Positions 29,168 through 56,306 of a stretch of DNA of 56,306 nt are shown one piece after another. Numbering within the stretch: the first letter of the stretch is position 1; each line of letters starts with the position of its first letter. The notes below the pieces were generated by a model. That model ran no database searches, had not been told where the DNA came from, and was given only the letters and a program-made list of their open reading frames with translations. Made by a program: the position numbers and the translations under genes. The stretch comes from Arcobacter sp. (GTDB taxonomy: Bacteria > Campylobacterota > Campylobacteria > Campylobacterales > Arcobacteraceae). The stretch lies in NCBI GenBank assembly GCA_003252105.1, contig QKDL01000005.1, positions 1-56,306 on the forward strand. The letters are read 5' to 3'.

Positions 29168-30970
29168 ATGGAAATTAAAGCTAAAAACCTAAAGGAACTA
29201 GAACAAATCTGTTCAGATATTCGAGAACGAATAATTGATGTAGTTTCAAGAAAAGGTGGACACTTCTCATCTACTCTTGGTGCTGTTGAACTAACTGTAG
29301 CCATGCATAAAGTATTTGATGTGACTAAAGATCCTTTTATATATGACGTATCACATCAATGTTATGCACATAAATTGATAAATGGTAGATGGGAAGAGTT
29401 TGAAACTATTAGACAGTTTGAGGGACTTAGTGGTTTTACAAAACCAAAAGAGTCTGATGCTGACTATTTTATTGCTGGACATAGTTCTACATCAATATCC
29501 TTAGCTGTAGGTGCTGCAAAGGCTATAAAACTAAAAGGTGAGGATAGAACACCTGTAGTGATGATTGGTGATGGTTCTATGACTGCTGGAATGGTTTATG
29601 AAGCTTTAAATGAATTAGGTGATAGAAAATATCCTGTTGTAATTATCTTAAATGACAACGAGATGTCTATTGCAAAACCTATAGGTTCTATTTCTAAATA
29701 TCTATCTAAAATATTAGCTGGAAAATTTTATCAAGGTTTTAAAGAAAGAGTTGATAGAAATATAATACAACATCTACCTAATGGGGCTACATATATAGCC
29801 AAAAAGATAGAAGAGAGTATTAAACTTATCACTCCTGGTATTATCTTTGAAGAGATGGGAATAGATTATATAGGACCAATAGATGGACATAATTTAGAAG
29901 AGATAATAGAAACTTTAGAGATAGCAAAAGATATGAAAAAACCTGTTATTGTTCATGCTAAAACAGTAAAAGGTAAAGGGTATAAAATAGCAGAGGGTCA
30001 ACATGAAAAATGGCATGGAGTAGGGCCTTTTAATATAGATGATGGAGAGTTTATAAAAAAATCTTCAAAAAAATCTGCAACTGCAATATTTGCTGATGCA
30101 CTTTTAGAATTAGCAAGAAAACATGATAATATTGTTGGTGTGACAGCTGCAATGCCAAGTGGAACGGGAATAGATAAATTGATGAAGGAGTTTCCTTCTA
30201 GATTTTGGGATGTAGCAATTGCAGAACAACATGCAGTAACTTCTATGGCAGCTATGGCAAAAGAAGGTTTTAAACCATTTATTACAATTTACTCAACCTT
30301 TTTACAAAGAGGTTATGATCAAATTATACATGATGTATGTTTGATGAATTTACCTGTTGTTTTTGCAATTGATAGAGCAGGTATTGTAGGAAATGATGGT
30401 GAAACGCATCAAGGGGCTTTTGATATTTCATATTTGAGATTTATTCCAAATATGATTTTATGTGCACCCAGAGATGAAGAAACTTTAAAATATGCCTTAG
30501 AGTTTGGATATGAAGCAACATCTCCATGTGCTATTAGATACCCAAGAGGTTCTTTTAATCAATTAGAATTTGCCCCATCAGTTTTTTCTTTAGGAAAAGC
30601 AGAAGTTTTAAAAGAGGGTAGTTCAAATAAACTTTTTATAGGCTATGGTGCTGGAGTTAATAGAGCTTATGAAACTGAAAAACTACATAATGAAGATATC
30701 TCAATTGTTGATTTAAGATTTGTGAAACCACTTGATGAAAAACTTTTAGAAGAGTTATCAACAAAATATGATAATTGGTATATTTTTTCTGATTCTCAAA
30801 AACAAGGTGGAGTTGCAAGTGCAATTTTAGAATTTTTGAATAATAAAAAAATCACAAACGTAAAAATCACTTCTTTTGAATATGAAGATAATTTTATTCA
30901 ACATGGAGATACAAATTTAGTAGAGGAAAGTTTAGGTTTATTACCTAATCAATTAGTAAATAAAATCTAA
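29168..30970 (+). CDS. dxs: 1-deoxy-D-xylulose-5-phosphate synthase
   Basis: First enzyme of the MEP isoprenoid route, joining pyruvate and glyceraldehyde-3-phosphate with thiamine diphosphate. The cofactor motif is GDGSMTAGM with NDNEMS about 30 residues later; AEQHAVTSMAAMA is the transketolase-central signature, and HQCYAHKL and HSSTSISLA are other conserved parts. At 600 residues it is slightly shorter than the E. coli enzyme. Its stop codon lies in a hairpin shared with the converging secretin gene. Confidence 0.94.
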   Translation: MEIKAKNLKELEQICSDIRERIIDVVSRKGGHFSSTLGAVELTVAMHKVFDVTKDPFIYDVSHQCYAHKLINGRWEEFETIRQFEGLSGFTKPKESDADYFIAGHSSTSISLAVGAAKAIKLKGEDRTPVVMIGDGSMTAGMVYEALNELGDRKYPVVIILNDNEMSIAKPIGSISKYLSKILAGKFYQGFKERVDRNIIQHLPNGATYIAKKIEESIKLITPGIIFEEMGIDYIGPIDGHNLEEIIETLEIAKDMKKPVIVHAKTVKGKGYKIAEGQHEKWHGVGPFNIDDGEFIKKSSKKSATAIFADALLELARKHDNIVGVTAAMPSGTGIDKLMKEFPSRFWDVAIAEQHAVTSMAAMAKEGFKPFITIYSTFLQRGYDQIIHDVCLMNLPVVFAIDRAGIVGNDGETHQGAFDISYLRFIPNMILCAPRDEETLKYALEFGYEATSPCAIRYPRGSFNQLEFAPSVFSLGKAEVLKEGSSNKLFIGYGAGVNRAYETEKLHNEDISIVDLRFVKPLDEKLLEELSTKYDNWYIFSDSQKQGGVASAILEFLNNKKITNVKITSFEYEDNFIQHGDTNLVEESLGLLPNQLVNKI

Positions 30971-39211: not shown

Positions 39212-41656
39212 TTATTTTATTATTGATACTTTAACATTATCAATCTTTACAATTTCACTATCACTTGTTACATCAAGTCCTAAAGATACTTTTATATTAC
39301 CACTTGCATCAGTTACAGCAGTAAATACATATTTTTTCGAACCTTCATTTTCCCCTGGAGACTCTTTTATAATTCGGTCATTATTTAAATCAACATAAAA
39401 AAAGTCTTGAGAGTTACCGGATGTGTCCCATCCACCAGAATATTCCATATCAAATTCAACTTTTACCTTTCTAAATTTATATTTATTTGTAAAGTTAAAG
39501 ATATGACTAGCTTCTCTCTCTTTTTTCTTTTTTGTTGTAGTAAGTTTTAATTTACCTTCACCATTATCATTTATCCAATCTACTTTTGCATCACCATTCC
39601 ATCCTTCATTATCACTATCAAAAGTGTGTAAGAAAAATGGGTAATTATTATCCGTAATAGTTAATATATATGTGTCTGTTACACTAAGGCCATCTGGATC
39701 CGTAGCCATAATTGTTATTGATATACTTTCACCTACTGTATTGTCTGGAATATTTACACTAATAATACCAGACGTTGGGTTTATATAATTAACATATGTA
39801 GCACCAACAATTGAGAATGTCAATGTATCCCCGTTAGGATCACTAAAATGTGAACTTACATCATATGTATATAGTTCATTTTCTTGTGTTTCATGGTCTG
39901 GAATTGGAGTAACAACTACAGGTGGTAAGTTATCACTTACAACTTCAATATTAAATGTTAATGAATCAGAACCGCCTCTTCCATCAGATACTGTAATAGT
40001 AATATTTGCATATGTACCAACATCAGAATCAGATGGTGTACCTGTAAGTGCTCCTGTTGATGAGCTAAATACTGCCCATTGAGGTTTATTTTCAATACTA
40101 AATGTTAATGGATCATTATCCGGATCTGAAGCTGTTGGAGTAAAACTATATGTTTGATTTATATTAATAGTTGTAAGAGGTGAACCTGAAATTACCGGAG
40201 GATCATTTACTTCTAATACATTAACAACACAATATCCATAGCCACTTCCACTTGAATTATCAGTTGATTGAACTGTAATAGTATCTTCCCCAAAAAAGTT
40301 AGCTTCAGGTGTATATTCTATAGTTCCATTTGAAGCATCACCACTTTTTACTGTTGATCCGTGGTTCGCTGAAGAATCAGTTGAAACAACTGTTCCATTA
40401 GAGTCAGATGAACTATATGTAATAGTTAAATTAGTATCTTCATCTATTGTGGCAGGACATACTTGAAGACTTACTATTGGTTTATCATTGTCATTACAAG
40501 TAAGGGAGATATTTCCATTTTCATCTGTATCAAAATCAATTAATGAATCAGGTATTACTCTTGTTGTATTTAAAAATATATCATTAAAATCTTTATCCCC
40601 ACCATTGTCTAAATCTTCCATAGCATATTGATATTCATCATTTATATCTGTTTTGCAATCGATGATATCATTTTCATCTTTTCCATCATTGTTTATTTCA
40701 ATTTTATAATCAGTAAATTGACTTGTTTTACAATAATCTAAAAAGTCATTATATGTTTTTGCTCCATTCCCTTTGAAATCACCTTTGCCATTTACAAAAT
40801 CATTATAATGATCCCATAAGTTATTAGGAATAATTTGTATATGTTCATAGTTATCACTATTTAGTTCAGTTTGTTCAAAATATATTCTACCATCACTTTT
40901 TAATGTAGTTCCACCAATTGATATTGTTGGTTGATTTTTTGCTCCAAAACAATGGTTTGATAAATTTAATATATCATTATCTCCAGGAGTATACCCTCGA
41001 TTTTTAAATTTACTAAAACCATCTGGCATTAAAAATACATAAGTAGGAGGTGATTGTATGGTACTTCCTATTTTTTGACCAATTTTAGAATAATCATCAG
41101 AATTAGCTAAAATCAATCTTGTATTTGTAACACAATTATTTTCATCTAGCTCATAAGTTCCAATCATATTGGTATATCCTGCAGATTCTCCACCATACCA
41201 GATATCAACGGTTCTAGGAGTATTTACAAATTCAGTATCAGTTATAGTTCCAATTTGAAATTTTTTTAAGCCAAAAAATTTATACCAAAAAGTAGAATAT
41301 GGGTGTGACCTAATTGTTGTTGTCACTTGATCAGGATTTCTATCATCTCCTATTCCATCATTGTTATAATCTGGAGTTATATTTTTCCATTGAAAAGATA
41401 TAAGATTGTTATTTAAAAGGTATCTTCCTGTAGGTGTTTGACTTAAAATGTCAATTGCTATAGCTTCTGCTGTACACATATCTATTTGTTGCTCATAGTA
41501 TCTTGCCATAGCTATAGAAGCCTCTTTTGCTATTTGTTTTAAATCATATATTCTATCTCTAGTATTTTTTTCATCATAAACAGTAGCAACAAATAAAGTA
41601 AATGTTGTAAGAAGTAAAAAGCCAAGCATTATCTGCTCTAACATAGCTTTTTTCAT
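39212..41656 (-). CDS. Large TadG-like minor pilin with cadherin-like repeats, probable pilus-tip adhesin
   Basis: 814 residues. The N-terminus (MKKAMLEQIMLGF, helix about 5-26) is a TadE/TadG-type membrane head. A long region of unknown fold contains a Ca-type loop DYNNDGIGDD (96-105) and a DUF4114-like segment (AMEDLDNGGDKDFNDIF, about 345-361). Then come three Ig/cadherin-like repeats: about 398-488, 488-575 (with ASDPDNDPLTFSI and TGTPSDSDVGTY) and 578-670 (FSDPNGDTLTFSI). A C-terminal beta domain follows (about 675-814, FDSDNEGWNGDAKV). Fusing adhesin modules to a pilin head suggests a surface-exposed tip or an anchored adhesin. It starts 33 bases after tadV and ends in an intrinsic terminator. 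Confidence 0.78.
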   Translation of the reverse strand: MKKAMLEQIMLGFLLLTTFTLFVATVYDEKNTRDRIYDLKQIAKEASIAMARYYEQQIDMCTAEAIAIDILSQTPTGRYLLNNNLISFQWKNITPDYNNDGIGDDRNPDQVTTTIRSHPYSTFWYKFFGLKKFQIGTITDTEFVNTPRTVDIWYGGESAGYTNMIGTYELDENNCVTNTRLILANSDDYSKIGQKIGSTIQSPPTYVFLMPDGFSKFKNRGYTPGDNDILNLSNHCFGAKNQPTISIGGTTLKSDGRIYFEQTELNSDNYEHIQIIPNNLWDHYNDFVNGKGDFKGNGAKTYNDFLDYCKTSQFTDYKIEINNDGKDENDIIDCKTDINDEYQYAMEDLDNGGDKDFNDIFLNTTRVIPDSLIDFDTDENGNISLTCNDNDKPIVSLQVCPATIDEDTNLTITYSSSDSNGTVVSTDSSANHGSTVKSGDASNGTIEYTPEANFFGEDTITVQSTDNSSGSGYGYCVVNVLEVNDPPVISGSPLTTININQTYSFTPTASDPDNDPLTFSIENKPQWAVFSSSTGALTGTPSDSDVGTYANITITVSDGRGGSDSLTFNIEVVSDNLPPVVVTPIPDHETQENELYTYDVSSHFSDPNGDTLTFSIVGATYVNYINPTSGIISVNIPDNTVGESISITIMATDPDGLSVTDTYILTITDNNYPFFLHTFDSDNEGWNGDAKVDWINDNGEGKLKLTTTKKKKEREASHIFNFTNKYKFRKVKVEFDMEYSGGWDTSGNSQDFFYVDLNNDRIIKESPGENEGSKKYVFTAVTDASGNIKVSLGLDVTSDSEIVKIDNVKVSIIK

Positions 41657-41689
41657 AGTTAACTCCTTCTTATTAACTAATAGGATTAT

Positions 41690-42121
41690 CTAAGGATATA
41701 TTCCACTAATTTCAACTATTTCTGTAAAAAAGACTGCTAAAAGTATCGCAGGAGCCATAGGTGCAGTACGTCTTCTTTTTATTTTTTGAAAAAATAACAA
41801 CAAAATCATCTGAAATATACCACAAAATAATAAAAAAATAGGGAAATATAAAGGTTGTAAGTAAATGGCAACTACCATAAAATATTTTATATCTCCACCA
41901 CCCAAAATCATTTTTGGAAACACAAATAATATTATAACAAAAAAAATAAAAATTAATAATAAAACAAAAAATGAATATAGATTTAAATTATTTTCAAAAT
42001 ATCCAAATACTAATAACATTATTGAAAGTGCTATCAAAAGTGTATTTGGGATTAATCTTTTTTTACAATCTATATAAGAGATAATTATAGAGAATATATA
42101 AAATGATAATGATGTTATCAT
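41690..42121 (-). CDS. tadV: Prepilin peptidase TadV (CpaA)
   Basis: Aspartic membrane peptidase that trims the Flp pilins. The two catalytic aspartates lie in YIDCKKRLIPN (D18) and GGGDIKY (GxGD motif), both at membrane borders. It is a short form (143 residues) without the N-methylation domain, as in Tad systems. Its ATG directly follows the flp2 stop codon. About five membrane helices are apparent. Confidence 0.88.
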   Translation of the reverse strand: MITSLSFYIFSIIISYIDCKKRLIPNTLLIALSIMLLVFGYFENNLNLYSFFVLLLIFIFFVIILFVFPKMILGGGDIKYFMVVAIYLQPLYFPIFLLFCGIFQMILLLFFQKIKRRRTAPMAPAILLAVFFTEIVEISGIYP

Positions 42122-45568: not shown

Positions 45569-45943
45569 TTGAAAATAGTTAAATATTTTTTTGTTGGAGG
45601 TACAGCAGCAGTTGTAGATGTTGGCCTTTTTTTTATTTTTGCTAAGTTTTTAGGATTCAATTATTTAATAGTGGGTTTTTTTACATTTTTAATTGCTACA
45701 TTTGTAAATTATTATTTAAGTATTAAATTTGTTTTTGAAAGTGGAAAAAAGTTTAAAAAGAGAAAAGAGATATTTCTAGTATATTTAGTTAGTGCTTCAA
45801 GTTTAGGTTTAAATTTATTATTATTATATATCTTACATGAGTGGATAAAACTTGATATCGGATTTGCAAAGATTATTGTTACAGGCTTACTATTTTTTTA
45901 TAATTATGCAATTAGAAAATTTTTTATATTTACAAGAGACTAA
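45569..45943 (+). CDS. GtrA-family membrane protein (first copy)
   Basis: 124 residues, four membrane helices, with the GtrA opening KYFFVGGTAAVVDVGLFF and the ending NYAIRKFFIF. GtrA-type proteins are thought to flip polyprenyl-phosphate-linked sugars across the inner membrane. It starts at TTG 45569 with AAAAAGG eight bases upstream and is first of the operon. No GtrB partner is adjacent; a second GtrA with partner lies at 54458. Confidence 0.85.
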   Translation: MKIVKYFFVGGTAAVVDVGLFFIFAKFLGFNYLIVGFFTFLIATFVNYYLSIKFVFESGKKFKKRKEIFLVYLVSASSLGLNLLLLYILHEWIKLDIGFAKIIVTGLLFFYNYAIRKFFIFTRD

Positions 45944-45952
45944 GGAATTATT

Positions 45953-46723
45953 TTGAAAGTGTTAATTTTAGCAGGAGGTCTTGGAACTAGGCTTAGTGAA
46001 GAAACAGATATAAGACCAAAACCTATGGTTGAGATAGGTGGAAAACCAATTTTATGGCATATTATGAAAACATATTCAAAATACGGCTTTAATGAATTTG
46101 TGATTTTACTTGGATATAAAGGTTATTATATAAAAGAGTATTTTGCCAATTATTTTTTACACCAAAGTGATATTACAATTGACCTACAAAACAACAGTAT
46201 GCAAATACATGATAACCATAGTGAACCTTGGAAAGTTACACTACTCGATACGGGATTAAATAGTATGACGGGTGGAAGGGTAAAAAAGGCTCAAAAATAT
46301 GTAGGGGATGAACCTTTTTTACTAACTTATGGAGATGGAGTTAGTGATATAAATATTGATAAGTTATTAGAGTTTCATAAATTGCATGGAAAGGCTATGA
46401 CAGTTACATCATCACTTCCTGCTGGAAGATTTGGTGGTTTACATATTGAGGATAATAATAAAGTATCACAATTTTTTGAAAAACCAAAAGGTGATGGAAA
46501 CTGGGTTAGTGCGGGTTATTTTGTATGTGAACCAAAAGTTTTTGATTATATAAAAAATGGTGATGAAACAATATTAGAGTTGGAAACATTAAAAGACTTA
46601 GCGATAGATGGTGAATTATATACTTATAAACATGAAGGTTTTTGGAAACCTATGGATACCTTAAAAGATAAGTTAGATTTAAATGAGATGTGGCAAAAAG
46701 GTAAAGCACCTTGGAAAGTATAA
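45953..46723 (+). CDS. rfbF: Glucose-1-phosphate cytidylyltransferase
   Basis: Makes CDP-glucose from CTP and glucose-1-phosphate, the entry to CDP-3,6-dideoxyhexoses. The nucleotidyltransferase signature is LAGGLGTRLSEETDIRPKPM; YGDGVSDI holds the metal Asp, and the C-terminal EGFWKPMDTLKDK is typical for RfbF. Length 256. It starts at TTG 45953 with AAGGA upstream and overlaps rfbG by 13 bp. Confidence 0.93.
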   Translation: MKVLILAGGLGTRLSEETDIRPKPMVEIGGKPILWHIMKTYSKYGFNEFVILLGYKGYYIKEYFANYFLHQSDITIDLQNNSMQIHDNHSEPWKVTLLDTGLNSMTGGRVKKAQKYVGDEPFLLTYGDGVSDINIDKLLEFHKLHGKAMTVTSSLPAGRFGGLHIEDNNKVSQFFEKPKGDGNWVSAGYFVCEPKVFDYIKNGDETILELETLKDLAIDGELYTYKHEGFWKPMDTLKDKLDLNEMWQKGKAPWKV

Positions 46724-47838
46724 ATTATAAAAAACTTTTTGGTGGAATATATCTAAATAAAAAAGTTTTAGTAACAGGTCATAGTGGATTTAAAGGTTCG
46801 TGGTTTTGTAAATGGTTAGATTTAATGGGGGCTGAGGTTTTAGGTTATTCCTTAGAGCCAAATACCAATCCGAATCATTTTGAAAATTTAGATTTAAAAT
46901 GTAAATCAATTTTCTGTGATATAAAAGATTTAGAAAAGTTAAAAAATATAATTTTAGAGTTTAAACCAGAGATAATTTTTCATTTTGCGGCACAACCATT
47001 GGTTAGGATCTCTTATTTACAACCATATGAAACAATTCAAACAAATATTATAGGTAGTACAAATTTGCTTGAGATTATTAGAAAAGTAGATTTTGTAAAA
47101 GCATTTGTAAATATTACAAGTGATAAGTGTTATGAAAATAAAGAGTTAGAAAATAAAGCTTATGCTGAATCTGATAGCTTAGGAGGATATGATATTTATA
47201 GTGCTTCTAAAGCTTGTAGTGAGTTAGTAACTGCTTCATATAGAGATTCATTTTTTAATTTAGACAATTATAAAATTACACATAATATACTAATTGCAAC
47301 TTGTAGAGCTGGAAATGTTATAGGTGGAGGGGATTGGAGCTTGGATAGATTGATTCCTGATATTGTTAAGTCAATTGTTGATAAAAAAAAGGTGTTAATA
47401 AGAAATCCAAAGGCTGTTAGACCTTGGCAACATGTTTTAGAACCATTAAGTGGCTATTTGTTAGTTGGTCAATTTTTATTAGAAGAAAAAAAAGAGTTTG
47501 CAAGAGCTTGGAATTTTGGTCCCCAAATTGATTCAGAAATTTATGTTGAAGATTTAGTTAAAAAAATAAAAAAATATTGGGATAGTTTTGAGTATGAGAT
47601 TGAACAAAACAAATCAAATCCTCATGAAGCAAATTTTTTAAAACTTGATTCAAGTTTTGCCAAGAATATATTAGGTTGGAAACCTATCTTTGATATAGAA
47701 AAATGTTTAGAAAAAACAATATCTTGGTATAAAGATTTTTATGAAAAAAATAAAATAAATACAGTTGAAGATATTCAAGAGTTTATAGTAGAAGCGAAAA
47801 GAAAAAAATTAAAGTGGTGTGATGATAAAAGTAAGTGA
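46711..47838 (+). CDS. rfbG: CDP-glucose 4,6-dehydratase
   Basis: Converts CDP-glucose to CDP-4-keto-6-deoxyglucose with bound NAD. Extended SDR with VLVTGHSGFKGSWF, the sequence specific for RfbG, the S/Y/K triad including YSASK, and FHFAAQPLVR. Length 375. The start is TTG 46711, inside rfbF; no ATG matches the conserved N-terminus. Its end overlaps the thiamine-enzyme gene by 17 bp. Confidence 0.92.
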   Translation: MESINYKKLFGGIYLNKKVLVTGHSGFKGSWFCKWLDLMGAEVLGYSLEPNTNPNHFENLDLKCKSIFCDIKDLEKLKNIILEFKPEIIFHFAAQPLVRISYLQPYETIQTNIIGSTNLLEIIRKVDFVKAFVNITSDKCYENKELENKAYAESDSLGGYDIYSASKACSELVTASYRDSFFNLDNYKITHNILIATCRAGNVIGGGDWSLDRLIPDIVKSIVDKKKVLIRNPKAVRPWQHVLEPLSGYLLVGQFLLEEKKEFARAWNFGPQIDSEIYVEDLVKKIKKYWDSFEYEIEQNKSNPHEANFLKLDSSFAKNILGWKPIFDIEKCLEKTISWYKDFYEKNKINTVEDIQEFIVEAKRKKLKWCDDKSK

Positions 47839-49612
47839 TTATATAGCAAAATTTATAGCTGAACATAAAGAGATAGGAAAAGATGTTTTTATGGTTTCAG
47901 GTGGTGGGAATATGCATTTGATAGATTCCTTAGGTAGAAATGAAAAACTAAACTATGTGTGTAATCATCATGAACAAGCATGTACTTATGCAGCTGAAGG
48001 GTATGCAAGAGTTTCTAATAAGATTGGTGTTTCATATGTGACAACAGGACCTGGTGGTACAAATGCAATTACAGGAGTATATAGTGCTTGGGTTGATTCA
48101 ATACCGACACTTACAATCTCTGGACAAGTTAAATTTCAAACAACTATTGAGTCATGTAAAGAGCTTGGTTTAAGACAATTGGGAGACCAAGAGGTAAATA
48201 TAATTGATTTGGTTAAGCCAGTAACAAAATATGCTCATATGGTTACAGATAAAAACACAATCAAATATCATCTTCAAAAAGCAGTTTATGAGGCAAAAAA
48301 TAAAAGGCCTGGACCTGTATGGCTTGATATCCCTTTAGATATTCAAGGTTCAATAGTAGATGAAAATGATTTAGTAGAGTTTACTATACCAGAAGAAGAG
48401 AATTATGATACTAAACTTAATATGGTAATAAAAGAGTTAAAAACTGCAAAAAGACCTGTAATAATTGCTGGAAATGGGATTACATTGAGTGGAGCAAATA
48501 AACAGTTTGTAGAATTAATTGAAAAGTTGAAAATACCAGTTGTTAGCAGTTTTGCAAGATATGATATGTTACATGATGATTATCCTTTATGTTTTGGAAG
48601 ATTTGGTACAATTGGACAAAGAAGTGCAAACTTTATAGTACAAAATAGTGATTTGGTTATTGCAATTGGAGCAAGACTAAATATTAGAGCAATAAGTTAC
48701 AATTGGGAGTTTTTTGCAAGAGAAGCAAAAAAAATATTAGTAGATATTGATGAATCTGAATTAAATAAACCAACTTTAAATATAGATATAAAAATTCATA
48801 GTGACGCAAAATATTTTATAGAACAGTTAGATGATAATATCGATAATCTATCTTTAGATTTTACCTCATGGCTAAATAGATGTGAAAAATATAAAAAAGA
48901 TTTTCCTACTATTACAAAGGAAAGACAAGAAGTAGAAGGTTTTGTTGACTCATATAATTTCTTTGATGTTTTATCAGATATTGTAAGTGATAAAGAGGTA
49001 TTTGTTTTTGCTAATGCAACAGCAAGTGTATCATCATACCAAAGCTTAAAAACAAAAGGGACTCAAAAGATTATTGAAAATTCAGGGTGTGCAGCGATGG
49101 GTTATGATTTACCTGCAGCTATCGGTGCTTGTTATGCAAATGATAAGAATGATGTGATTTGTGTTACAGGTGATGGAAGTATCCAGATGAATATTCAAGA
49201 GTTGCAAACAATTATTCATAATAAACTACCAATAAAAATTTTTGTATTTAATAACAATGGGTATTCATCAATTAAAAATACTCAAAACAATTTTTTTAAT
49301 GGTTTTAAGGTTGGTTCTGAAATAAATAGTGGGGTTAGTTTTCCAAATATGCAAGCTATAGCAAAAGCTTATGGTTTTAAAACTTTTATTATTAAAAATC
49401 AAGAGAATCTAAAAAATAATATTGAAAATATTTTAAAAGAAAAATCTTTTATATGTGAAGTTATAATAGATCCAAATGAAAAAATGGAGCCTAAATTATC
49501 ATCCCAGATAAAACCAGATGGGAAAATGGTATCAAAACCTTTAGAGGATATGTTCCCTTTCTTACCAAGAGAAATATTTTTAGAAAATATGATTATCAAA
49601 CCTATAGATTAG
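47822..49612 (+). CDS. Thiamine-diphosphate-dependent enzyme, acetolactate-synthase-like (YerE-like candidate)
   Basis: 596 residues from ATG 47822 (a GTG precedes it). Three-domain ThDP fold: catalytic Glu51 in CNHHEQAC, substrate loop TTGPGGTNAITGVYSAWVDS, and the cofactor motif GDGS (about 450-453) with NNN about 25 residues on. It resembles acetohydroxyacid synthases, but the setting between rfbG and sugar enzymes points to sugar chemistry. In Yersinia, YerE is such an enzyme and adds a two-carbon unit from pyruvate to CDP-4-keto-3,6-dideoxyglucose. The same reaction here is an inference; another 2-keto donor is possible. Confidence 0.8.
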   Translation: MIKVSDYIAKFIAEHKEIGKDVFMVSGGGNMHLIDSLGRNEKLNYVCNHHEQACTYAAEGYARVSNKIGVSYVTTGPGGTNAITGVYSAWVDSIPTLTISGQVKFQTTIESCKELGLRQLGDQEVNIIDLVKPVTKYAHMVTDKNTIKYHLQKAVYEAKNKRPGPVWLDIPLDIQGSIVDENDLVEFTIPEEENYDTKLNMVIKELKTAKRPVIIAGNGITLSGANKQFVELIEKLKIPVVSSFARYDMLHDDYPLCFGRFGTIGQRSANFIVQNSDLVIAIGARLNIRAISYNWEFFAREAKKILVDIDESELNKPTLNIDIKIHSDAKYFIEQLDDNIDNLSLDFTSWLNRCEKYKKDFPTITKERQEVEGFVDSYNFFDVLSDIVSDKEVFVFANATASVSSYQSLKTKGTQKIIENSGCAAMGYDLPAAIGACYANDKNDVICVTGDGSIQMNIQELQTIIHNKLPIKIFVFNNNGYSSIKNTQNNFFNGFKVGSEINSGVSFPNMQAIAKAYGFKTFIIKNQENLKNNIENILKEKSFICEVIIDPNEKMEPKLSSQIKPDGKMVSKPLEDMFPFLPREIFLENMIIKPID

Positions 49613-49620
49613 GAAAAAGT

Positions 49621-50379
49621 ATGAGTTCTATATTTAATTTAAAAGATAAAGTAGCAGTAATCACAGGTGGTAGAAGAGGTATTGGATATGCTTTAGCCTT
49701 AGGTTTAGCAAAAGAGGGTGTTGATATTGTTGTTATAGGAAAATCAAAAGAAGCAGGAACAATTGAGAAGGAGATAAAAAAATATAATAGAAAGTTTATC
49801 TATATACAATGTGATTTAGCAAATAGAGATGATAGAAAAAATTTGATTGAAAAAATAGTAAATAAGATGGGTAAAATTGATATATTAATCAATAATGCAG
49901 GTGTTCAAACTTTATGTGCAGCAAAAGATTATAGTTTTTCTCAATGGGATTTTGAGATGGAGTTGATGTTAACAGCAGTTTTTGACCTTTCTTCTCAAGC
50001 TTATACATTTATGGAGAAACAAAAAAGTGGAAAAATAATTCAAATTGCATCAATAAGCTCATATCAAGGTGCAAGGAATATAATAGGATATTCAACTGCA
50101 AAACATGCTTTGATTGGGATGATTAAATGTATGTCAAATGAGTGGGCAATAGATGGTATAAATATAAATGGAATTGCACCAGGTATAATTGAAACTGATA
50201 TGAGCAAAGATACTGTGGAAGATAAACAAAAAGCAGATATATTAAAAAGTAGAATACCTTCTGGAAAATTTGGTAAACCAGAGGATATTGTAGGAACTGC
50301 TATTTATCTTTGTTCTGATGCAAGTAATCATGTGAATGGAACGGTTATTACAATAGATGGTGGATGGTTAGGTAGATAA
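49621..50379 (+). CDS. Short-chain dehydrogenase, KduD/gluconate-5-dehydrogenase-like
   Basis: 252 residues with cofactor loop TGGRRGIG (15-22), NNAG, and the catalytic S-Y157-x3-K161 set (GYSTAK). The ending TIDGGWLGR is characteristic of KduD and gluconate dehydrogenases. In this operon it may reduce the carbonyl of a branched or extended sugar, a step done by YerF in Yersinia (family differs, so this is an inference). It starts 8 bases after the ThDP gene. Confidence 0.83.
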   Translation: MSSIFNLKDKVAVITGGRRGIGYALALGLAKEGVDIVVIGKSKEAGTIEKEIKKYNRKFIYIQCDLANRDDRKNLIEKIVNKMGKIDILINNAGVQTLCAAKDYSFSQWDFEMELMLTAVFDLSSQAYTFMEKQKSGKIIQIASISSYQGARNIIGYSTAKHALIGMIKCMSNEWAIDGININGIAPGIIETDMSKDTVEDKQKADILKSRIPSGKFGKPEDIVGTAIYLCSDASNHVNGTVITIDGGWLGR

Positions 50380-50380
50380 G

Positions 50381-51397
50381 ATGAATAAAAGTGAAAAAAT
50401 CGAATCAAAAGATTTACGATGTAAAGATAGACAAGCTTTAGAGGATATAATACCTTTAAAAACCCCATTTGTTATCTATATAGACCCAACAAATTTATGT
50501 AATTTTAAATGTAAATTTTGTCCTACAGGGGACAATTCTTTATTAAAACAAGTTGGAAGAAAACATAGTTCATTATCTTTAGAAGCATTTAAAAAAATCG
50601 TTGATGATATCGCTTTGTTTAATGAACCATTAAAACTATTGAGTTTGTATAAAGATGGGGAACCATTATTAAATAAAGATTTTCCTAAAATGGTTAAATA
50701 TGCAAAAGAGAAAAAAATAGCCCAAAGAATTTGGACTAAAACTAATGGTTCATTATTTAATCCCAAGTTAAACAAAGAACTAATTGATTCAGGGATTGAT
50801 ATGATTCATATATCTATTGAAGCTACCTCTAAAGAGGGATATTTAGATATCGCAAAAGTTGATATCGATTATGAAGAGTTTAGACAAAATATTCAAAACT
50901 TATATGATAATAGAAAAGATTGCAAAATATATATAAAAATAATAGATTGTAATCTAAGTGAAGAGGATAAAAAGAAGTTTTACAAAGATTTTGAAAATAT
51001 GAGTGATTTTATAAGTGTTGAAAAACTTATGGGATGGTCATATTCAGATATAAAAGATTTTACTTTAGGGATTCAATCAGAAACTTATGATGGACTACCT
51101 TTTACTCCAAAAGAGATTTGTGCATATCCTTTTTATGTTTTAGCTGTAAATGCTGATGGCAGTGTATCAACTTGTGGTAATGATTGGGCATATAAAACAT
51201 CTGTTGGAAATATTCACAAAGAGAGTATTATAGATATATGGAATGGTGAAAAACTTTATAATATGCGAAAAATGTTTTTAACTTTTAATAGAAAAGATAA
51301 TGAAGCTTGCGCAAATTGTTATTATCTAAAGATTGTACCAGACAATATTGATGAGTATGCAGATGATATTTTAAAGAAATTGGATTTAGGTAGATAA
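50381..51397 (+). CDS. Radical SAM/SPASM enzyme
   Basis: 338 residues. The [4Fe-4S] motif is C40-x3-C44-x2-C47 (CNFKCKFC), and the C-terminal SPASM part has CAYPFYVLAVNADGSVSTCGNDW and CANCYYLKI, giving extra cluster ligands. Such enzymes occur in some O-antigen clusters with unknown substrates. It is two bases after the SDR gene and two bases before the aldolase gene, so the three are cotranslated. What bond it acts on is unknown; dehydration, epimerisation or carbon insertion are open. Confidence 0.82.
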   Translation: MNKSEKIESKDLRCKDRQALEDIIPLKTPFVIYIDPTNLCNFKCKFCPTGDNSLLKQVGRKHSSLSLEAFKKIVDDIALFNEPLKLLSLYKDGEPLLNKDFPKMVKYAKEKKIAQRIWTKTNGSLFNPKLNKELIDSGIDMIHISIEATSKEGYLDIAKVDIDYEEFRQNIQNLYDNRKDCKIYIKIIDCNLSEEDKKKFYKDFENMSDFISVEKLMGWSYSDIKDFTLGIQSETYDGLPFTPKEICAYPFYVLAVNADGSVSTCGNDWAYKTSVGNIHKESIIDIWNGEKLYNMRKMFLTFNRKDNEACANCYYLKIVPDNIDEYADDILKKLDLGR

Positions 51398-51398
51398 A

Positions 51399-52226
51399 AT
51401 GGTAAAAAACATAACACTTTTTGATTGTACATTAAGGGAGTCTGGATATCAAACAGGATGGAATTTTGATAAAAAATTTGTAAAAGATTTATATAGATTT
51501 GCTCATGGAAAAGGTATTGACTATTTGGAGTTAGGTTTTTTCCATAATATGGATGCTGATCCAAATAGAGGATTATTTAGATACTGCAGTCAAAAAAATG
51601 ATGAGATTAAGGAGATATTTGAACCAATTAAAAACTGGACAAAAATATCTTCAATGTTAGATGTGCAAAGACCTTTATCTAAACTTTTGCCAAGAAAAGA
51701 GAGTTCAATTGATACAATTAGAATAATTACAAGATCCCATGAAACAGATTTTGAAGTACTTGCAAAACATGTTGATGAGATTCAAAACTTAGGATATGAA
51801 CTTTTTATAAACTTTACAAGTGCTGGATATAACTCTTTAGAAAAAAACCAATCTTTTGCACAGTTTTGTAAAAAACATGGGGTAAAAGTTATGTATCTAG
51901 CAGATACAGAAAGTGTCTTTACAAAAGATTATTTAATAGATTCTATGGATATTATTAGAGAAGAGGGGGTTGAGGTTGGAGTTCATTTACATGATAAAAA
52001 TGGAACAGCTGAAGAGTTACTTGATGTTGCTTTATCAAAAAACTGTAAATATACCGATGCAACTTTATTAGGTCTTGGTGGAAAATGGCATGATGGTAAT
52101 ATTCCTTTGGAGTATATTATCAAAAAGATGGGAATTAGTGGTGGATATGAATTAACACAGTTAAAAACTAACCTTGTACAACAATTAATAAAATACTATC
52201 CTCATACAACAGCTATTTTGGAATAA
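51399..52226 (+). CDS. DRE-TIM metallolyase, HMG-CoA-lyase/4-hydroxy-2-oxovalerate-aldolase-like
   Basis: 275-residue TIM-barrel aldolase. It opens with FDCTLRESGYQTGW (metal ligand D9, R13), and H196-x-H198 in VHLHDKNG supply the other metal ligands; GLGGKWHDGN matches the final active-site loop. The family cleaves or makes C-C bonds by way of pyruvate or acetyl-CoA enolates. It is shorter than biosynthetic isopropylmalate or homocitrate synthases. In this operon it may supply or trim the carbon branch of a sugar, which is an inference. Confidence 0.82.
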   Translation: MVKNITLFDCTLRESGYQTGWNFDKKFVKDLYRFAHGKGIDYLELGFFHNMDADPNRGLFRYCSQKNDEIKEIFEPIKNWTKISSMLDVQRPLSKLLPRKESSIDTIRIITRSHETDFEVLAKHVDEIQNLGYELFINFTSAGYNSLEKNQSFAQFCKKHGVKVMYLADTESVFTKDYLIDSMDIIREEGVEVGVHLHDKNGTAEELLDVALSKNCKYTDATLLGLGGKWHDGNIPLEYIIKKMGISGGYELTQLKTNLVQQLIKYYPHTTAILE

Positions 52227-52227
52227 A

Positions 52228-53145
52228 ATGAATATTTTAATAACTGGTGGAAAAGGTTTTATAGCTAAAAGTTTAACTGAACAATTAACTAAAAACAATA
52301 AATATAAAATCTTTTCACCATCTTCAAAAGAGTTAAGTCTGATAAATGAAAGTGATGTAGATAATTTTATAATATCAAATAAAATTGATATTATAATACA
52401 TACAGCAAATAAAGGTGGAGGTAGAGATAGTTTAGATTTTAAAAATCTAACAGAATATAATCTAAGAATGTTTTTCAATATAGCTAAACATGAAAAAAAT
52501 GTTAAAAAAATAATAAGTTTTGGAAGTGGAGCAGAGTATGGAAAGCATAAACCAATAATTGAAGTAAAGGAGGATGAATATAGATTAGCTCAACCTATAG
52601 ATGAGTATGGTTTTTATAAATCAATCACTTCAAAATATATTGAAAAAAGTGAGAAAATAATACAACTTAGAATTTTTGCTTGTTATGGAAAGTATGAAAA
52701 CTATTTGTTGAAATTTATTACTAATTCTATAGTTAAAAATCTTTTTAAACTACCTATTATAATAAATCAAAATGTTTATTTTGATTATATGTATATTGAT
52801 GATTTAATTAAGATTGTGGATTATTTTATAAATAATGATGCAAAATATAAAGTATATAATGCCTCAAGTGGTAAAAAAGTAGATTTATTAACATTAGCAA
52901 ATACTATAAATAAAATAAGTGAATACAAATCAGAAATAGTGGTTTTAAATAGTGATTTAAACAATGAATATAGTTCAAATAATGATAGATTAAAAGGTGA
53001 AATTACAAAATTAAATTTCACTTCCCATGAAAAAGCTATAAGTGAAATGTATAAATATTTTAAATCAAATCTTTCATTTATAGATAAACAAGAGATAATA
53101 GATGATAAATATTTAGAAAATTGTAATAAGATTTGGAGAAAATAG
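52228..53145 (+). CDS. NAD-dependent epimerase/reductase (extended SDR)
   Basis: 305 residues; the nucleotide loop is GGKGFIAKSL and the catalytic pair is in YGFYKS (Y-x3-K). FGSGAEYGKH resembles the sugar-nucleotide C4 reductases RmlD, RfbJ (abequose) and similar. It directly precedes rfbH, so it is a likely last-step reductase or epimerase for the CDP-sugar. One base separates it from the aldolase gene. Confidence 0.8.
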   Translation: MNILITGGKGFIAKSLTEQLTKNNKYKIFSPSSKELSLINESDVDNFIISNKIDIIIHTANKGGGRDSLDFKNLTEYNLRMFFNIAKHEKNVKKIISFGSGAEYGKHKPIIEVKEDEYRLAQPIDEYGFYKSITSKYIEKSEKIIQLRIFACYGKYENYLLKFITNSIVKNLFKLPIIINQNVYFDYMYIDDLIKIVDYFINNDAKYKVYNASSGKKVDLLTLANTINKISEYKSEIVVLNSDLNNEYSSNNDRLKGEITKLNFTSHEKAISEMYKYFKSNLSFIDKQEIIDDKYLENCNKIWRK

Positions 53146-54468
53146 ATGGCAAGTCCAGAAGAGTTAAAAGATGAAATATTAGAAAAGGTAAAAGAATATT
53201 ACTCTTTAGTTCATGAAAAAAATAGTAAAAAAGATTTTAAGCCTGGAAATAGAATCAATTATGCAAGTAGAGTATTTGATGAAAATGAGATGATAAACCT
53301 TATTGATAGTTCTTTAGAGTTTTGGTTAACTTATGGAAGATATTCTAAAGAGTTTGAGAAAAAACTATCAGAATATTTAAATATAAAATACTCATTTTTA
53401 GTCAATAGTGGAAGTAGTGCAAACCTACTTGCTTTTTATACATTAACTTCCCCTTTATTAAAACATAGACAAATAAAAAGAGGTGATGAGGTTATAACAG
53501 TTGCAGCAGCTTTTCCCACAACCGTGTCTCCTATAGTTCAATATGGGGCTATTCCAGTATTTGTTGATATGGAGCTTGATTGTATAAATATTGATGTGTC
53601 TCAATTAGAAAATGCAGTTTCCCAAAAAACAAAAGCTGTAATGATTGCACACACTTTAGGTAATCCTTTCAATATTAAAAAAGTAAAAGAGTTTTGTGAA
53701 AAATATGAGCTTTGGCTTATTGAAGATAATTGTGATGCTTTAGGCTCTTTATATGATGGAAAACTAACTGGAACTTGGGGAGATATTGGTACAAGTTCTT
53801 TCTATCCACCACACCATATGACAATGGGTGAAGGTGGTGCTGTTTATACAAACAATCCTTTATTAAAAAAGATTATTTTAAGTATGCGTGATTGGGGTAG
53901 AGATTGCTGGTGCGAAAGTGGTGTAGATAATACATGTAACTCAAGATTTAGTCAAAAGTTTGCAGATTTGCCAGTTGGTTATGACCATAAGTATGTTTAT
54001 AGTCACTTTGGTTTTAATTTAAAAGCTACAGATATGCAAGCAGCTATTGGATGTGCACAATTGGATAAAATAGATTTTTTTACTAAAAAAAGAAAAGAAA
54101 ATTTTGAAAAGTTATATGATGGTTTAAAAGATATAAAAAAATTTGAGATAATAAAAAAGCAAGCTAATTCAAATCCAAGTTGGTTTGGATTTATGATTAC
54201 TTTAAATGATGATTTAAATTTTAGTAGAAATGATTTAGTTGAGTTCTTAGAAGATAATAATATCCAAACAAGAAATCTATTTGCTGGAAATATATTAAGA
54301 CATCCATTATTTAAAACACTAAAGCAGGGAGAAGATTATAGAAAAATTGGTGAACTTCCTAATACTGATAAGATTATGAATAATAGTTTTTGGATTGGAG
54401 TTTACCCCGCAATGGATGAAAAAGAGATTGATTTTATGATTGAAACAATAAGGAAATTTGTTGATTAA
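53146..54468 (+). CDS. rfbH: CDP-4-keto-6-deoxyglucose-3-dehydrase (E1), iron-sulfur/PMP enzyme
   Basis: Removes the C3 hydroxyl to yield the 3,6-dideoxy-4-keto sugar. Fold of the aspartate-aminotransferase family with NSGSSANLLAF and EDNCDALGS, but the cofactor lysine is replaced by His (H223 in PPHHMTMGEGG), so it uses PMP. The [2Fe-2S] cysteines C254-x-C256-x7-C264 match the known C-x1-C-x7-C pattern. Length 440. The reductase partner E3 is not in the window. Confidence 0.93.
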   Translation: MASPEELKDEILEKVKEYYSLVHEKNSKKDFKPGNRINYASRVFDENEMINLIDSSLEFWLTYGRYSKEFEKKLSEYLNIKYSFLVNSGSSANLLAFYTLTSPLLKHRQIKRGDEVITVAAAFPTTVSPIVQYGAIPVFVDMELDCINIDVSQLENAVSQKTKAVMIAHTLGNPFNIKKVKEFCEKYELWLIEDNCDALGSLYDGKLTGTWGDIGTSSFYPPHHMTMGEGGAVYTNNPLLKKIILSMRDWGRDCWCESGVDNTCNSRFSQKFADLPVGYDHKYVYSHFGFNLKATDMQAAIGCAQLDKIDFFTKKRKENFEKLYDGLKDIKKFEIIKKQANSNPSWFGFMITLNDDLNFSRNDLVEFLEDNNIQTRNLFAGNILRHPLFKTLKQGEDYRKIGELPNTDKIMNNSFWIGVYPAMDEKEIDFMIETIRKFVD

Positions 54469-54823
54469 ACAACAGTTTATTAGATTTATTTTTATTGGTA
54501 TTATGAATACCACTTTTGGTTATGGTATTTATGCTTTTTTTATTTTTTTAGGATTTGATTATAAAATAGCTGTACTTATGGGTACTATATTAGGGGTATT
54601 ATTTAACTTTCAAACAATTGGTAGATTTGTTTTTAAAAAGTATGATTATAAACTTTTTTTTAAATTTTTATTGGTTTATGTGGTAACATACTTTTTAAAT
54701 ATTTTATTTATATTTATTCTAAAATCGTTTGATTTAAACGATTATATTTCAGGATTTATTGCTTTATTTCCATTAGCGATAATCTCTTTTTTAATGAACA
54801 AATTTTTTGTATATAAGGATTAA
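54458..54823 (+). CDS. GtrA-family membrane protein (second copy)
   Basis: 121 residues with four membrane helices and the family pattern FIRFIFIGIMNTTFGYGIYAFF (written in part), ending FLMNKFFVYK. Start TTG at 54458 or 54461; the latter has AGGA at a better distance. It overlaps rfbH by 11 bp and lies two bases before a GtrB-like transferase, so it is a likely flippase for that sugar-lipid. Confidence 0.83.
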   Translation: MLIKQQFIRFIFIGIMNTTFGYGIYAFFIFLGFDYKIAVLMGTILGVLFNFQTIGRFVFKKYDYKLFFKFLLVYVVTYFLNILFIFILKSFDLNDYISGFIALFPLAIISFLMNKFFVYKD

Positions 54824-54824
54824 A

Positions 54825-55760
54825 ATGAAAAAGATTAGTGTTGTAACGCACACCTTCCATGAAGAAGAAAATGTAGAACTTTTATATAAAAAAGTAAAAT
54901 CAATTTTTGATGAAAATCTAAATAATTATACTTATGAGCATATTTTTATAGATAATGCATCAAAAGATAAAACAGTATCCATTTTAAAAGAGATTGCTAA
55001 AGTTGATAAAAATGTAAAAATTATTGTAAATTCAAGAAATTTCGGACATATGAGATCTCCTATTTATGGTTTTTTCCAAGCGAGTGGAGATGCAGTTATA
55101 ACTCTTGCTGCTGATTTTCAAGAACCACCAGAAATGATTCTAGATTTTGTAAAAAAATGGGAAGAGGGTTATGAAACAGTAATTGCAGTAAAAAAAGACA
55201 GTGAAGAAAAAAGAATGATGTTTAGAGTTAGAGAATTTTATTATTCTTTATTAAGTAAATTATCCGAAGTAAAGATTGTTAAAAATTATACTGGATTTGG
55301 TTTATATGACAGAAAAGTTGTAAATGCTTTAATGAAAATGGATGATTCTTATCCTTTTTTCAGAGGAATGGTTGCTGAAGCTGGATTTGATATTTGCGAA
55401 ATAGAATTTAATCAACCAGTAAGAATAAGAGGACTTAGTAAAAACAATTTTTATACTTTATACGATACTGCAATGTTAGGAATTATAAGTAATTCTAAAG
55501 TTCCATTAAGACTTGCAATATTTATTGGTGCATTTAGTGCAATAATCAGCTTTTTTGTAGGGGTATTTTACTTTATTGCAAAAATAGTTTATTGGGATAG
55601 CATGAGTATAGGGGTTGCTCCTTTAGTTATAGGGGGATCATTTGCATTTTCAGTATTATTGATATTCTTAGGAATTTTAGGTGAATATATAGGGGCAATT
55701 TATACACAAGTATTAAATAGACCTTTAGTATTTGAAAAAGAGAGAATTAATTTTGATTAA
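54825..55760 (+). CDS. Polyprenyl-phosphate glycosyltransferase, family 2 (GtrB/DPM1-like)
   Basis: 311 residues. The GT2 domain starts KKISVVTHTFHEEENV, followed by FIDNASKD, NFGHMRSPIYGFFQASGDAV and the catalytic AADFQEPP. Two C-terminal membrane helices (about 224-250 and 260-295) are as in GtrB. It would load a sugar from a nucleotide donor on undecaprenyl phosphate at the cytoplasmic face. ATG 54825 follows the gtrA stop by one base. Confidence 0.88.
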   Translation: MKKISVVTHTFHEEENVELLYKKVKSIFDENLNNYTYEHIFIDNASKDKTVSILKEIAKVDKNVKIIVNSRNFGHMRSPIYGFFQASGDAVITLAADFQEPPEMILDFVKKWEEGYETVIAVKKDSEEKRMMFRVREFYYSLLSKLSEVKIVKNYTGFGLYDRKVVNALMKMDDSYPFFRGMVAEAGFDICEIEFNQPVRIRGLSKNNFYTLYDTAMLGIISNSKVPLRLAIFIGAFSAIISFFVGVFYFIAKIVYWDSMSIGVAPLVIGGSFAFSVLLIFLGILGEYIGAIYTQVLNRPLVFEKERINFD

Positions 55761-55853: not shown

Positions 55854-56306
55854 TTGACAGAAAATAAAAATAAATATATATTTAATTTTCTAATATTTTT
55901 AGCTTTTGCTTTTATCTTATTTTTTTATAGAATTAATTTATTATACTATTTTCAAGAGTTAAATCCTGATGAAGCTCAGTTTGTTTCAGCTGCAATGAGA
56001 CTATCAAAATATGGAATAGGATTTGACAAAGTTTATAATGGAAGTTCAGGTTTAGTTAATGTAATCATACTCATGTGGCCAAAATTGTTTAATATGGATA
56101 TAAATATAGCTACTGCAAGGATAACCGATTTAGTTCTATTGGTTTTTAGTTGTTATTTAGTTTTTTTAATTATAAGACAATTTACAAATTATTTATTTAG
56201 TTGTCTATTGACACTCCCTTTAGTATTTTTTTATTCTTTTTCTATTCATAAAGATTTTTTGCATTATAGTAGTGAACGTTTACCTATTTTTTTTATATTA
56301 ATATGT
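55854..56306 (+). CDS. GT-C membrane glycosyltransferase, 5' part, cut by the window edge
   Basis: 151 codons are visible: a hydrophobic N-terminal helix, then LNPDEAQFVSAAMR, where the D-E pair is the typical catalytic loop of ArnT/PMT-like GT-C enzymes, and two or more further helices. Start TTG 55854, with GGGAG about ten bases upstream. Following gtrA and the GtrB-like gene, it is probably the specific transferase that moves the lipid-linked sugar to a polymer or protein outside. A 93-bp AT-rich gap precedes it. Confidence 0.7.
   Translation, partial: MTENKNKYIFNFLIFLAFAFILFFYRINLLYYFQELNPDEAQFVSAAMRLSKYGIGFDKVYNGSSGLVNVIILMWPKLFNMDINIATARITDLVLLVFSCYLVFLIIRQFTNYLFSCLLTLPLVFFYSFSIHKDFLHYSSERLPIFFILIC

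Follow-up and report, generated by a model that had tools for sequence, protein, structure and literature searches.

A proposed operon for a C4-branched CDP-3,6-dideoxyhexose in Arcobacter sp., with a YerE-like enzyme, a DRE-TIM aldolase and a radical SAM protein

The stretch of Arcobacter sp. DNA considered here (assembly GCA_003252105.1, contig QKDL01000005.1, positions 1 to 56,306; hereafter the window, 56,306 nucleotides in all) carries an operon in which rfbF, rfbG and rfbH, genes for a cytidine diphosphate (CDP)-linked 3,6-dideoxy-4-ketohexose, enclose five further genes. These encode a thiamine diphosphate (ThDP)-dependent enzyme, a KduD-like short-chain dehydrogenase/reductase (SDR), a radical S-adenosylmethionine (SAM) protein, a DRE-TIM aldolase and an extended SDR. 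The locus raises the question of what the enclosed enzymes would build on the ketosugar, and from which donor. Our preferred answer, to which we assign a probability of about 0.68, is that the operon works like the ErwE/YerE branching systems with a donor made by the aldolase, providing for the synthesis and export of a C4-branched CDP-3,6-dideoxyhexose.

An initial annotation of the window had proposed a new CDP-linked branched sugar built from an extended donor. This interpretation is partly supported: the branched sugar and the extended donor agree with the results below, whereas the novelty in kind does not stand, since the donors of ErwE in the erwiniose pathway are, according to the accessible text of a review, themselves 4-hydroxy-2-oxo acids (PMC12247030).

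Organization of the operon and the proposed pathway

The eight genes at the centre of the proposal are the following.

45953..46723, + strand: rfbF, glucose-1-phosphate cytidylyltransferase (TIGR02623, 400 bits against a cut-off of 300)
46711..47838, + strand: rfbG, CDP-glucose 4,6-dehydratase (TIGR02622, 471 bits against a cut-off of 278)
47819..49612, + strand: predicted YerE-like ThDP-dependent carboligase (TPP_enzyme N, M and C domains; JanthE 8rph, 7e-129; Glu52 and GDG; under the listed acetohydroxyacid synthase (AHAS) cut-offs)
49621..50379, + strand: KduD-like SDR (adh_short; TIGR01832, 238 bits against a cut-off of 338.85; best solved chain 4z9y)
50381..51397, + strand: radical SAM protein with a BtrN-type twitch domain (PF04055; PF13186, SPASM; C40, C44, C47; auxiliary cysteines)
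51399..52226, + strand: DRE-TIM aldolase of 275 residues, proposed 4-hydroxy-2-oxo acid aldolase (HMGL-like)
52228..53145, + strand: extended SDR, proposed acyl-branch reductase in the role of YerF (PF01370, Epimerase)
53146..54468, + strand: rfbH, CDP-4-keto-6-deoxyglucose 3-dehydratase, E1 (NF011936, 708 bits against a cut-off of 423; 3bcx)

Open reading frames (ORFs), domains and curated models confirm this set at 45953-54468 as initially annotated, with rfbF, rfbG and rfbH each above its curated cut-off; the closest solved relative of RfbH is E1 itself (3bcx, 1.2e-152). The genes are tightly packed, the computed intergenic gaps being -13 bases for rfbF/rfbG, -20 for rfbG/ThDP, 8 for ThDP/KduD, 1 each for KduD/radical SAM, radical SAM/aldolase and aldolase/extended SDR, and 0 for extended SDR/rfbH. 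GC content shows no sharp change across the operon, and scans gave 68 promoter-like sites against 76.8 in shuffled sequence and 4 terminator-like sites against 2.5.

By established biochemistry RfbF, RfbG and RfbH, with an E3 reductase, yield CDP-4-keto-3,6-dideoxyglucose, and at the family level the window proteins are expected to do the same. The DRE-TIM aldolase would join pyruvate to an aldehyde, and a 4-hydroxy-2-oxo acid is accordingly the donor that its presence would point to in the window. By analogy with YerE, ErwE and JanthE, the ThDP enzyme would decarboxylate this acid and add the acyl carbanion to the C4 ketone, and the extended SDR would then reduce the side-chain ketone, as YerF does. 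Together with the KduD-like SDR, the BtrN-type radical SAM protein may act as a two-gene tailoring unit on a hydroxyl group of either the donor acid or the branch, perhaps by oxidation followed by reduction, perhaps by deoxygenation. Finally, a family 2 glycosyltransferase (GT2) could move the sugar to polyprenyl phosphate, a GtrA-like protein could flip it, and a membrane transferase could add it to a surface glycan. A donor of at least five carbons would give a product of at least ten.

The ThDP enzyme and its distinction from acetolactate synthase

The top solved relative of the ThDP enzyme is the JanthE chain 8rph, well ahead of the runner-up, an AHAS chain (8.1e-76). The entries 8rph and 8rpj share one sequence, and the 8rph chain has a CDG motif; in its accessible text the JanthE paper gives 8rpj as the structure and describes that motif (PMC12188165). 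The catalytic Glu52 is present in all 102 aligned ThDP enzymes of the locus set described below, and the window enzyme has GDG.

The possibility was considered that this protein is an acetolactate synthase placed among sugar genes by chance, as its best NCBIfam matches are AHAS models, with 360 bits for TIGR00118. This score lies below the cut-off of 538, the other listed AHAS models also remain below theirs, and the genome encodes, elsewhere, another protein that exceeds the cut-offs of two AHAS models (1036 and 802 bits). Further, gene order is kept across phyla, and the recurrence in other genomes of the order rfbF-rfbG-ThDP, through to extended SDR-rfbH, argues that the grouping is beyond chance. 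Identity as the cell's acetolactate synthase, which the initial annotation had named as an outcome that would count against it, is rejected on these scores, and a chance neighbourhood is very improbable. The match to JanthE, the AHAS scores below cut-off and the true AHAS elsewhere in the genome mark the enzyme as YerE-like by the sequence features tested. A search of plasmids for it gave no match at 1e-100. A second, weak TPP_enzyme_C match in the window (25 bits, 29486-29665) lies within a frame of 602 amino acids.

Candidate donor cassettes in related loci

Searches at E <= 1e-100 located the ThDP enzyme in 23 of 397 phylum genomes, and searches at E <= 1e-80 located it in 11 of 104 family genomes, the source genome being included in both counts. 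All phylum loci but that of G056 were read, and these 22, together with the best 80 of 334 named relatives, make up a set of 102 loci (L numbers), at most 101 of them distinct, as L040 and L058 are apparently the same contig. Pyruvate-type enzymes are under-sampled, because only the best 80 of the 334 relatives entered the set.

A candidate donor cassette was called where a possible 2-keto acid enzyme is encoded no more than five genes from ThDP. It is an HpcH/HpaI aldolase in 52 loci, NeuB in 17 (possibly too high a count, as some NeuB may be ordinary nonulosonic acid synthases), an acetaldehyde dehydrogenase (AcDH) with DmpG in four (L044-L047), a window-type DRE-TIM aldolase in three (the window, L010 and L035) and a DRE-TIM fusion in three (L082, L088, L128). 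The remaining 23 have none, nine of these being cut by contig ends, with fewer than four genes after or fewer than three before the ThDP gene (L057, L069, L070, L078, L085, L107, L113, L119, L122). L048 was labelled as having none, three unidentified genes separating its ThDP and extended SDR genes, and L106, with HpcH plus an AcDH-DmpG pair at a second ThDP gene, was counted as HpcH. The extended SDR gene of L036 and one ThDP gene of L121 are each read in two frames.

The gene-order comparison with other Campylobacterota that the initial annotation had proposed shows a recurrent frame, rfbF-rfbG-ThDP-[cassette]-extended SDR-rfbH, in which the cassette varies. It is missing in L051-L053, and consists of AcDH, DmpG and an SDR in L046, L047 and, with two further small genes, L045; of a HAD protein and HpcH in L036-L038; of an SDR, a 3-dehydroquinate (DHQ)-synthase-like protein and HpcH in L041 and also in L039 and L040, where rfbH precedes ThDP; of FkbM and the DRE-TIM aldolase in L035 and L010, the latter with an extra methyltransferase before ThDP; and of the KduD-like SDR, radical SAM protein and DRE-TIM aldolase in the window. 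The frame is absent from L044, L049, L050 and L054. Across the whole set, 65 of the 102 loci have a best-hit gene for the extended SDR no more than 6 genes away from ThDP.

Identity to the window is 68-74% for RfbH and 48-67% for the extended SDR in L010, L035-L041, L045-L048 and L051-L053, and 59-61% and 49%, respectively, in L042-L043. For the ThDP enzyme it is 64-76% where the cassette is of the DRE-TIM or HpcH type and 35-45% where it is DmpG or none. Outside L042-L043 the likeness of RfbH and the extended SDR to those of the window hardly depends on the cassette, whereas the ThDP enzyme varies with it. The most straightforward interpretation is a joint exchange of cassette and ThDP enzyme, because the former makes the donor of the latter. 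Additionally, L046 encodes an acetylating acetaldehyde dehydrogenase and a 4-hydroxy-2-oxovalerate aldolase, both over their curated cut-offs, between ThDP and SDR-extended SDR-rfbH-GtrA-GT2. These are predicted to be the genes for an ErwE-type donor, and the AcDH-DmpG loci support the cassette reading.

Two kinds of locus deserve separate mention. A DHQ-synthase-like protein and a short SDR stand beside HpcH or NeuB in many ThDP clusters (L039:10019-12554, L066:10866-13570); the protein cluster of the former covers 29 loci, and the branch there may be cyclic. The fusion loci L082 (11781-13376) and L128 (6488-8206) have DRE-TIM domains within proteins of 532-573 amino acids adjoining ThDP genes; the C-terminal half of these fusions gave no Pfam match in L082 and a sub-threshold MptE-like match in L128.

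Phylogeny of the ThDP enzymes and the choice of donor

The principal alternative is that the window makes an ordinary yersiniose-type sugar from pyruvate, the aldolase, radical SAM protein and KduD-like SDR serving another part of the same glycan. In yersiniose A synthesis pyruvate is the donor and the YerF reductase acts after YerE coupling. To our knowledge no aldolase, radical SAM or KduD protein belongs to that pathway, and the initial annotation's placing of the aldolase outside it is supported. In keeping with the alternative, ThDP is followed directly by the extended SDR in L051-L053, L042, L043, L172 and L174, the KduD-like SDR and radical SAM genes are missing from the two closest clusters (L010 and L035), and a radical SAM homologue stands beside rfbH in a genome without a ThDP match (G292). 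Further, L061 of Sulfuricurvum, with a HAD gene in the cluster and no aldolase gene found beside it, has a ThDP enzyme 60% identical to that of the window and near it in the tree.

That tree, a quick one covering the 102 ThDP enzymes plus a further two from the window's own genome, with Shimodaira-Hasegawa-like approximate likelihood ratio test (SH-aLRT) support, bears on the choice. The window and L035 are sisters (100) within a set of 18 rows (100) that comprises these two, L010, 13 HpcH-paired loci and two cut ones; in the next larger set, of 21 rows (99), two HpcH loci and L061 join them. By contrast, five Campylobacterota ThDP enzymes without a cassette (L048, L051-L054) form a separate branch (99) and are 35-39% identical to the window enzyme. 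The aldolase is kept with the ThDP enzyme and the extended SDR in all three close clusters. A yersiniose-type product is for these reasons unlikely, and an aldolase-made donor is preferred. Cassette labels, with cut loci as their own group, call for 31 changes on the tree against 46.7 on shuffling (none of 200 shuffles going as low), and for 22 with the cut rows left out. The placement of the window among HpcH-paired rows suggests that the DRE-TIM aldolase replaced an HpcH/HpaI aldolase beside a ThDP enzyme already paired with one, or so it seems.

A residue of the ThDP enzyme was examined as a possible donor marker. V121, a pocket residue in JanthE (PMC12188165, accessible text), corresponds to D123 of the window enzyme. 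An aspartate stands here in 52/52 HpcH, 3/3 DRE-TIM, 15/17 NeuB and 2/3 DRE-TIM-fusion loci, in 0/4 DmpG loci (three L, one S) and in 13 of the 23 loci without a cassette, the rest having five F, three V and two I; F or V occupies it in seven Campylobacterota loci of this last class (L042, L043, L048, L051-L054). Over 93 rows, the cut loci being left out, an HpcH, NeuB or DRE-TIM gene stands at most nine genes away in 75, of which 72 have the aspartate; of the other 18 rows, 5 have it (L061, L102, L131 and two of the fusions, L082 and L088; Fisher's p 1.5e-9, ignoring descent).

The DRE-TIM aldolase

The aldolase has the DRE-TIM fold with its arginine, an acidic ligand and HxH, and its model matches DmpG-type aldolases. 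It scores 41 bits with TIGR03217, the 4-hydroxy-2-oxovalerate aldolase model, below the cut-off of 286; Pfam gave no DmpG_comm domain in it, and no AcDH is found among the operon genes. The aldolase occurs in 2 of 298 phylum genomes and 2 of 104 family genomes, its own genome included both times. A single-sequence scan of the genome's contigs found no relative, and searches of plasmids and phages gave one 24% match and none at 1e-10, respectively.

Rather than making the donor, the aldolase might act after coupling and extend or cut the acyl branch on the CDP-sugar; its gene indeed adjoins that of the extended SDR expected to work on the branch. Against this, its solved relatives of known function use small 2-oxo acids or thioesters, and the same slot in other clusters is taken by non-homologous 2-keto acid enzymes. 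Action after coupling is considerably less probable than even the yersiniose-type alternative, and synthesis of the donor by the aldolase is retained.

The radical SAM protein and the KduD-like SDR

In the radical SAM protein the CxxxCxxC motif of the SAM cluster is formed by C40, C44 and C47, and the C-terminal domain contains auxiliary cysteines in the pattern C-x17-C-x44-C-x2-C, a spacing identical to that of BtrN. The auxiliary cluster of BtrN has four cysteines, against three in MoaA, and is, per the accessible text, probably the electron acceptor in a two-electron alcohol oxidation (PMC9012708). Such a four-cysteine cluster makes oxidation the first guess for the window protein, and with the adjoining SDR an inversion or a deoxygenation is possible. 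The AprD4/AprD3 pair offers an analogy for a radical SAM protein working with an SDR. The substrate of KduD is a 2-keto-3-deoxy sugar acid, and the KduD likeness fits the product class of such an aldolase; as the window SDR falls under the KduD cut-off, this is a hint only.

A profile of the KduD-like SDR exceeds 120 bits in one of the 102 ThDP loci, the window itself, and a best-hit gene for the radical SAM protein occurs in five: the window, L128 (115 bits) and L044, L092 and L127 (40-45 bits), in the last of which it lies between the ThDP and aldolase genes. Radical SAM homologues are found in 30 of the 397 phylum genomes, the source genome included (1e-25). The radical SAM gene is present in the set as the initial annotation had it, whereas a core role for it and the KduD-like SDR is rejected, L010 and L035 having the aldolase and neither of these genes. 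We put forward tentatively, at somewhat under even odds, a broader proposal: that a 2-keto-3-deoxy acid from the aldolase is remodelled by the radical SAM protein and the SDR, either ahead of ThDP coupling or afterwards on the CDP-sugar, to give a branched sugar of a new type with ten or more carbons, and that YerE-like enzymes use exchangeable donor cassettes (HpcH/HpaI, NeuB, DmpFG, DRE-TIM) readable from neighbouring genes.

A separate locus of the same genus, L147 (G292, contig C40), combines rfbH, a radical SAM homologue at 43% identity, a DHQ-synthase-like protein, an SDR and a CTP_transf_3 protein in a genome without a ThDP or aldolase match, and perhaps makes another unusual dideoxysugar.

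Observations weighing against the proposal

Several observations count against the aldolase-made donor or the parts assigned to the other enzymes. First, the operon is without a dedicated E3 reductase; three PF00175 proteins are encoded elsewhere in the genome, and the two inspected have, by eye, an N-terminal plant-type 2Fe-2S motif. Second, the aldolase has Glu14 where DmpG-type enzymes hold a metal-binding aspartate, and is 16-24% identical to its best-matching solved aldolases. Third, the closest homologue of the radical SAM protein, that of G292, follows rfbH in the genome lacking ThDP and aldolase matches, and the homologues of L148-L152 adjoin FkbM-type genes on stretches without a ThDP gene, so that the radical SAM protein need not act on the donor. 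Fourth, some of the NeuB counted as cassettes may be ordinary nonulosonic acid synthases, the one of L050 having a SAF domain.

Fifth, the aspartate at position 123 is present in L061, L102 and L131, where no HpcH, NeuB or DRE-TIM gene was found, L061 falling in the 21-row set around the window, and is absent from L048, L049 and L050 with NeuB nearby. An independent-pairs test of D123 against the cassette found one of six pairs informative. The agreement is a clade-level pattern and no more, and D123 is not upheld as a descent-independent donor marker. A second candidate, P293 (R290 in the window), was dropped, being tied to flavin adenine dinucleotide (FAD) in the accessible text of PMC12188165.

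Proposed export genes and flanking features

The operon continues past rfbH to 55760, and the span initially annotated is slightly too narrow, as the GtrA (54458) and GT2 (54807) genes belong to the same set. The additional features are as follows.

45569..45943, + strand: GtrA-like small membrane protein, first copy, possibly in the set (PF04138, 6.1e-21; gap of 9 to rfbF)
54458..54823, + strand: GtrA-like flippase candidate (PF04138, 3.4e-13)
54807..55760, + strand: GT2, PgfS/ArnC-like, proposed to transfer the branched sugar to polyprenyl phosphate (182 bits with NCBIfam PgfS, below its cut-off of 500)
55854..56306, + strand: beginning of a membrane protein truncated at the end of the contig, possibly a GT-C transferase (open ORF; no Pfam match; assigned by eye)

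The gaps are -11 for rfbH/GtrA and -17 for GtrA/GT2, giving a range of -20 to +8 bases from rfbF to GT2. Gtr systems are the model for an export role of such a pair, and the analogy suggests that GT2 may transfer the branched sugar to polyprenyl phosphate and that GtrA may flip it. The GT2 is found in 6 of the 104 family genomes (E <= 1e-60), all among the 11 ThDP carriers (p 3e-7, uncorrected for kinship), and five of the 11 have none at that threshold. In four further relatives (L172-L175) GtrA immediately precedes GT2, which lies at most 5 kb from the ThDP gene, and a GT2 homologue above 250 bits is present in 35 of the 102 loci, the window included, the other 34 being at 53-69% identity. 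The GtrA and GT2 genes behind rfbH hence look dedicated to branched-sugar clusters.

To the left of the cluster, at 39212-42121, the window encodes a protein of 814 amino acids with Ig/cadherin-like domains, together with an A24 prepilin peptidase. In L035 (G304) the same place (868-2617) is taken by proteins of 434 and 143 amino acids with starts that resemble those of the window by eye, and from this likeness the two clusters seemingly occupy one chromosomal site.

Comparison with known systems

More than 200 YerE-like enzymes are predicted and the sugar structure is missing for the vast majority, according to the accessible text of the 2025 review (PMC12247030). Should the donor come from the 2-keto acid enzyme encoded nearby, the branches of many such sugars could become predictable and the donors directly testable. 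Cassettes of this kind would in addition be a source of enzymes for chiral tertiary alcohols that bear long, hydroxylated side chains, and the GT2/GtrA pair suggests that such sugars reach the cell surface by a lipid-linked route. Titles and abstract openings, mostly from outside subscription journals, revealed no aldolase or radical SAM protein in a YerE-like cluster.

The closest described system is the erwiniose pathway of Pectobacterium, in which ErwE, a YerE-like ThDP enzyme, couples 4-hydroxy-2-oxo acids, and not pyruvate, to the same CDP-ketosugar, as shown in vitro on a ketone analogue; the accessible part of the review, with which the window was compared by description, mentions no radical SAM or KduD step (PMC12247030). 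The yersiniose A pathway of Yersinia pseudotuberculosis has the same ketosugar and the same ThDP coupling, by YerE (PMC12247030, accessible text). JanthE (8rph), the nearest solved ThDP enzyme, differs in its CDG motif, against GDG in the window, and in V121, against Asp, and accepts 4-hydroxy-2-oxovalerate with benzaldehyde (PMC12188165, accessible text).

For the aldolase, the DmpG/DmpF aldolase-dehydrogenase (1nvm) has the DRE-TIM fold in common, and a pair of this type adjoins ThDP genes in the related clusters L044-L047 and L173. In contrast to DmpG, the window protein is shorter (275 residues), without DmpG_comm, with Glu for the metal-binding Asp, and without a dehydrogenase partner; the putative aldolase domain 3dxi of Bacteroides is also among the closest known systems. 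BtrN (4m7s) and the window radical SAM protein share their twitch cysteine spacing, whereas whole-chain similarity is weak and the partner in the window is an SDR. Taken together, the mechanism class represented by YerE and ErwE is already known, and the cassette with the radical SAM protein is a new variant of it.

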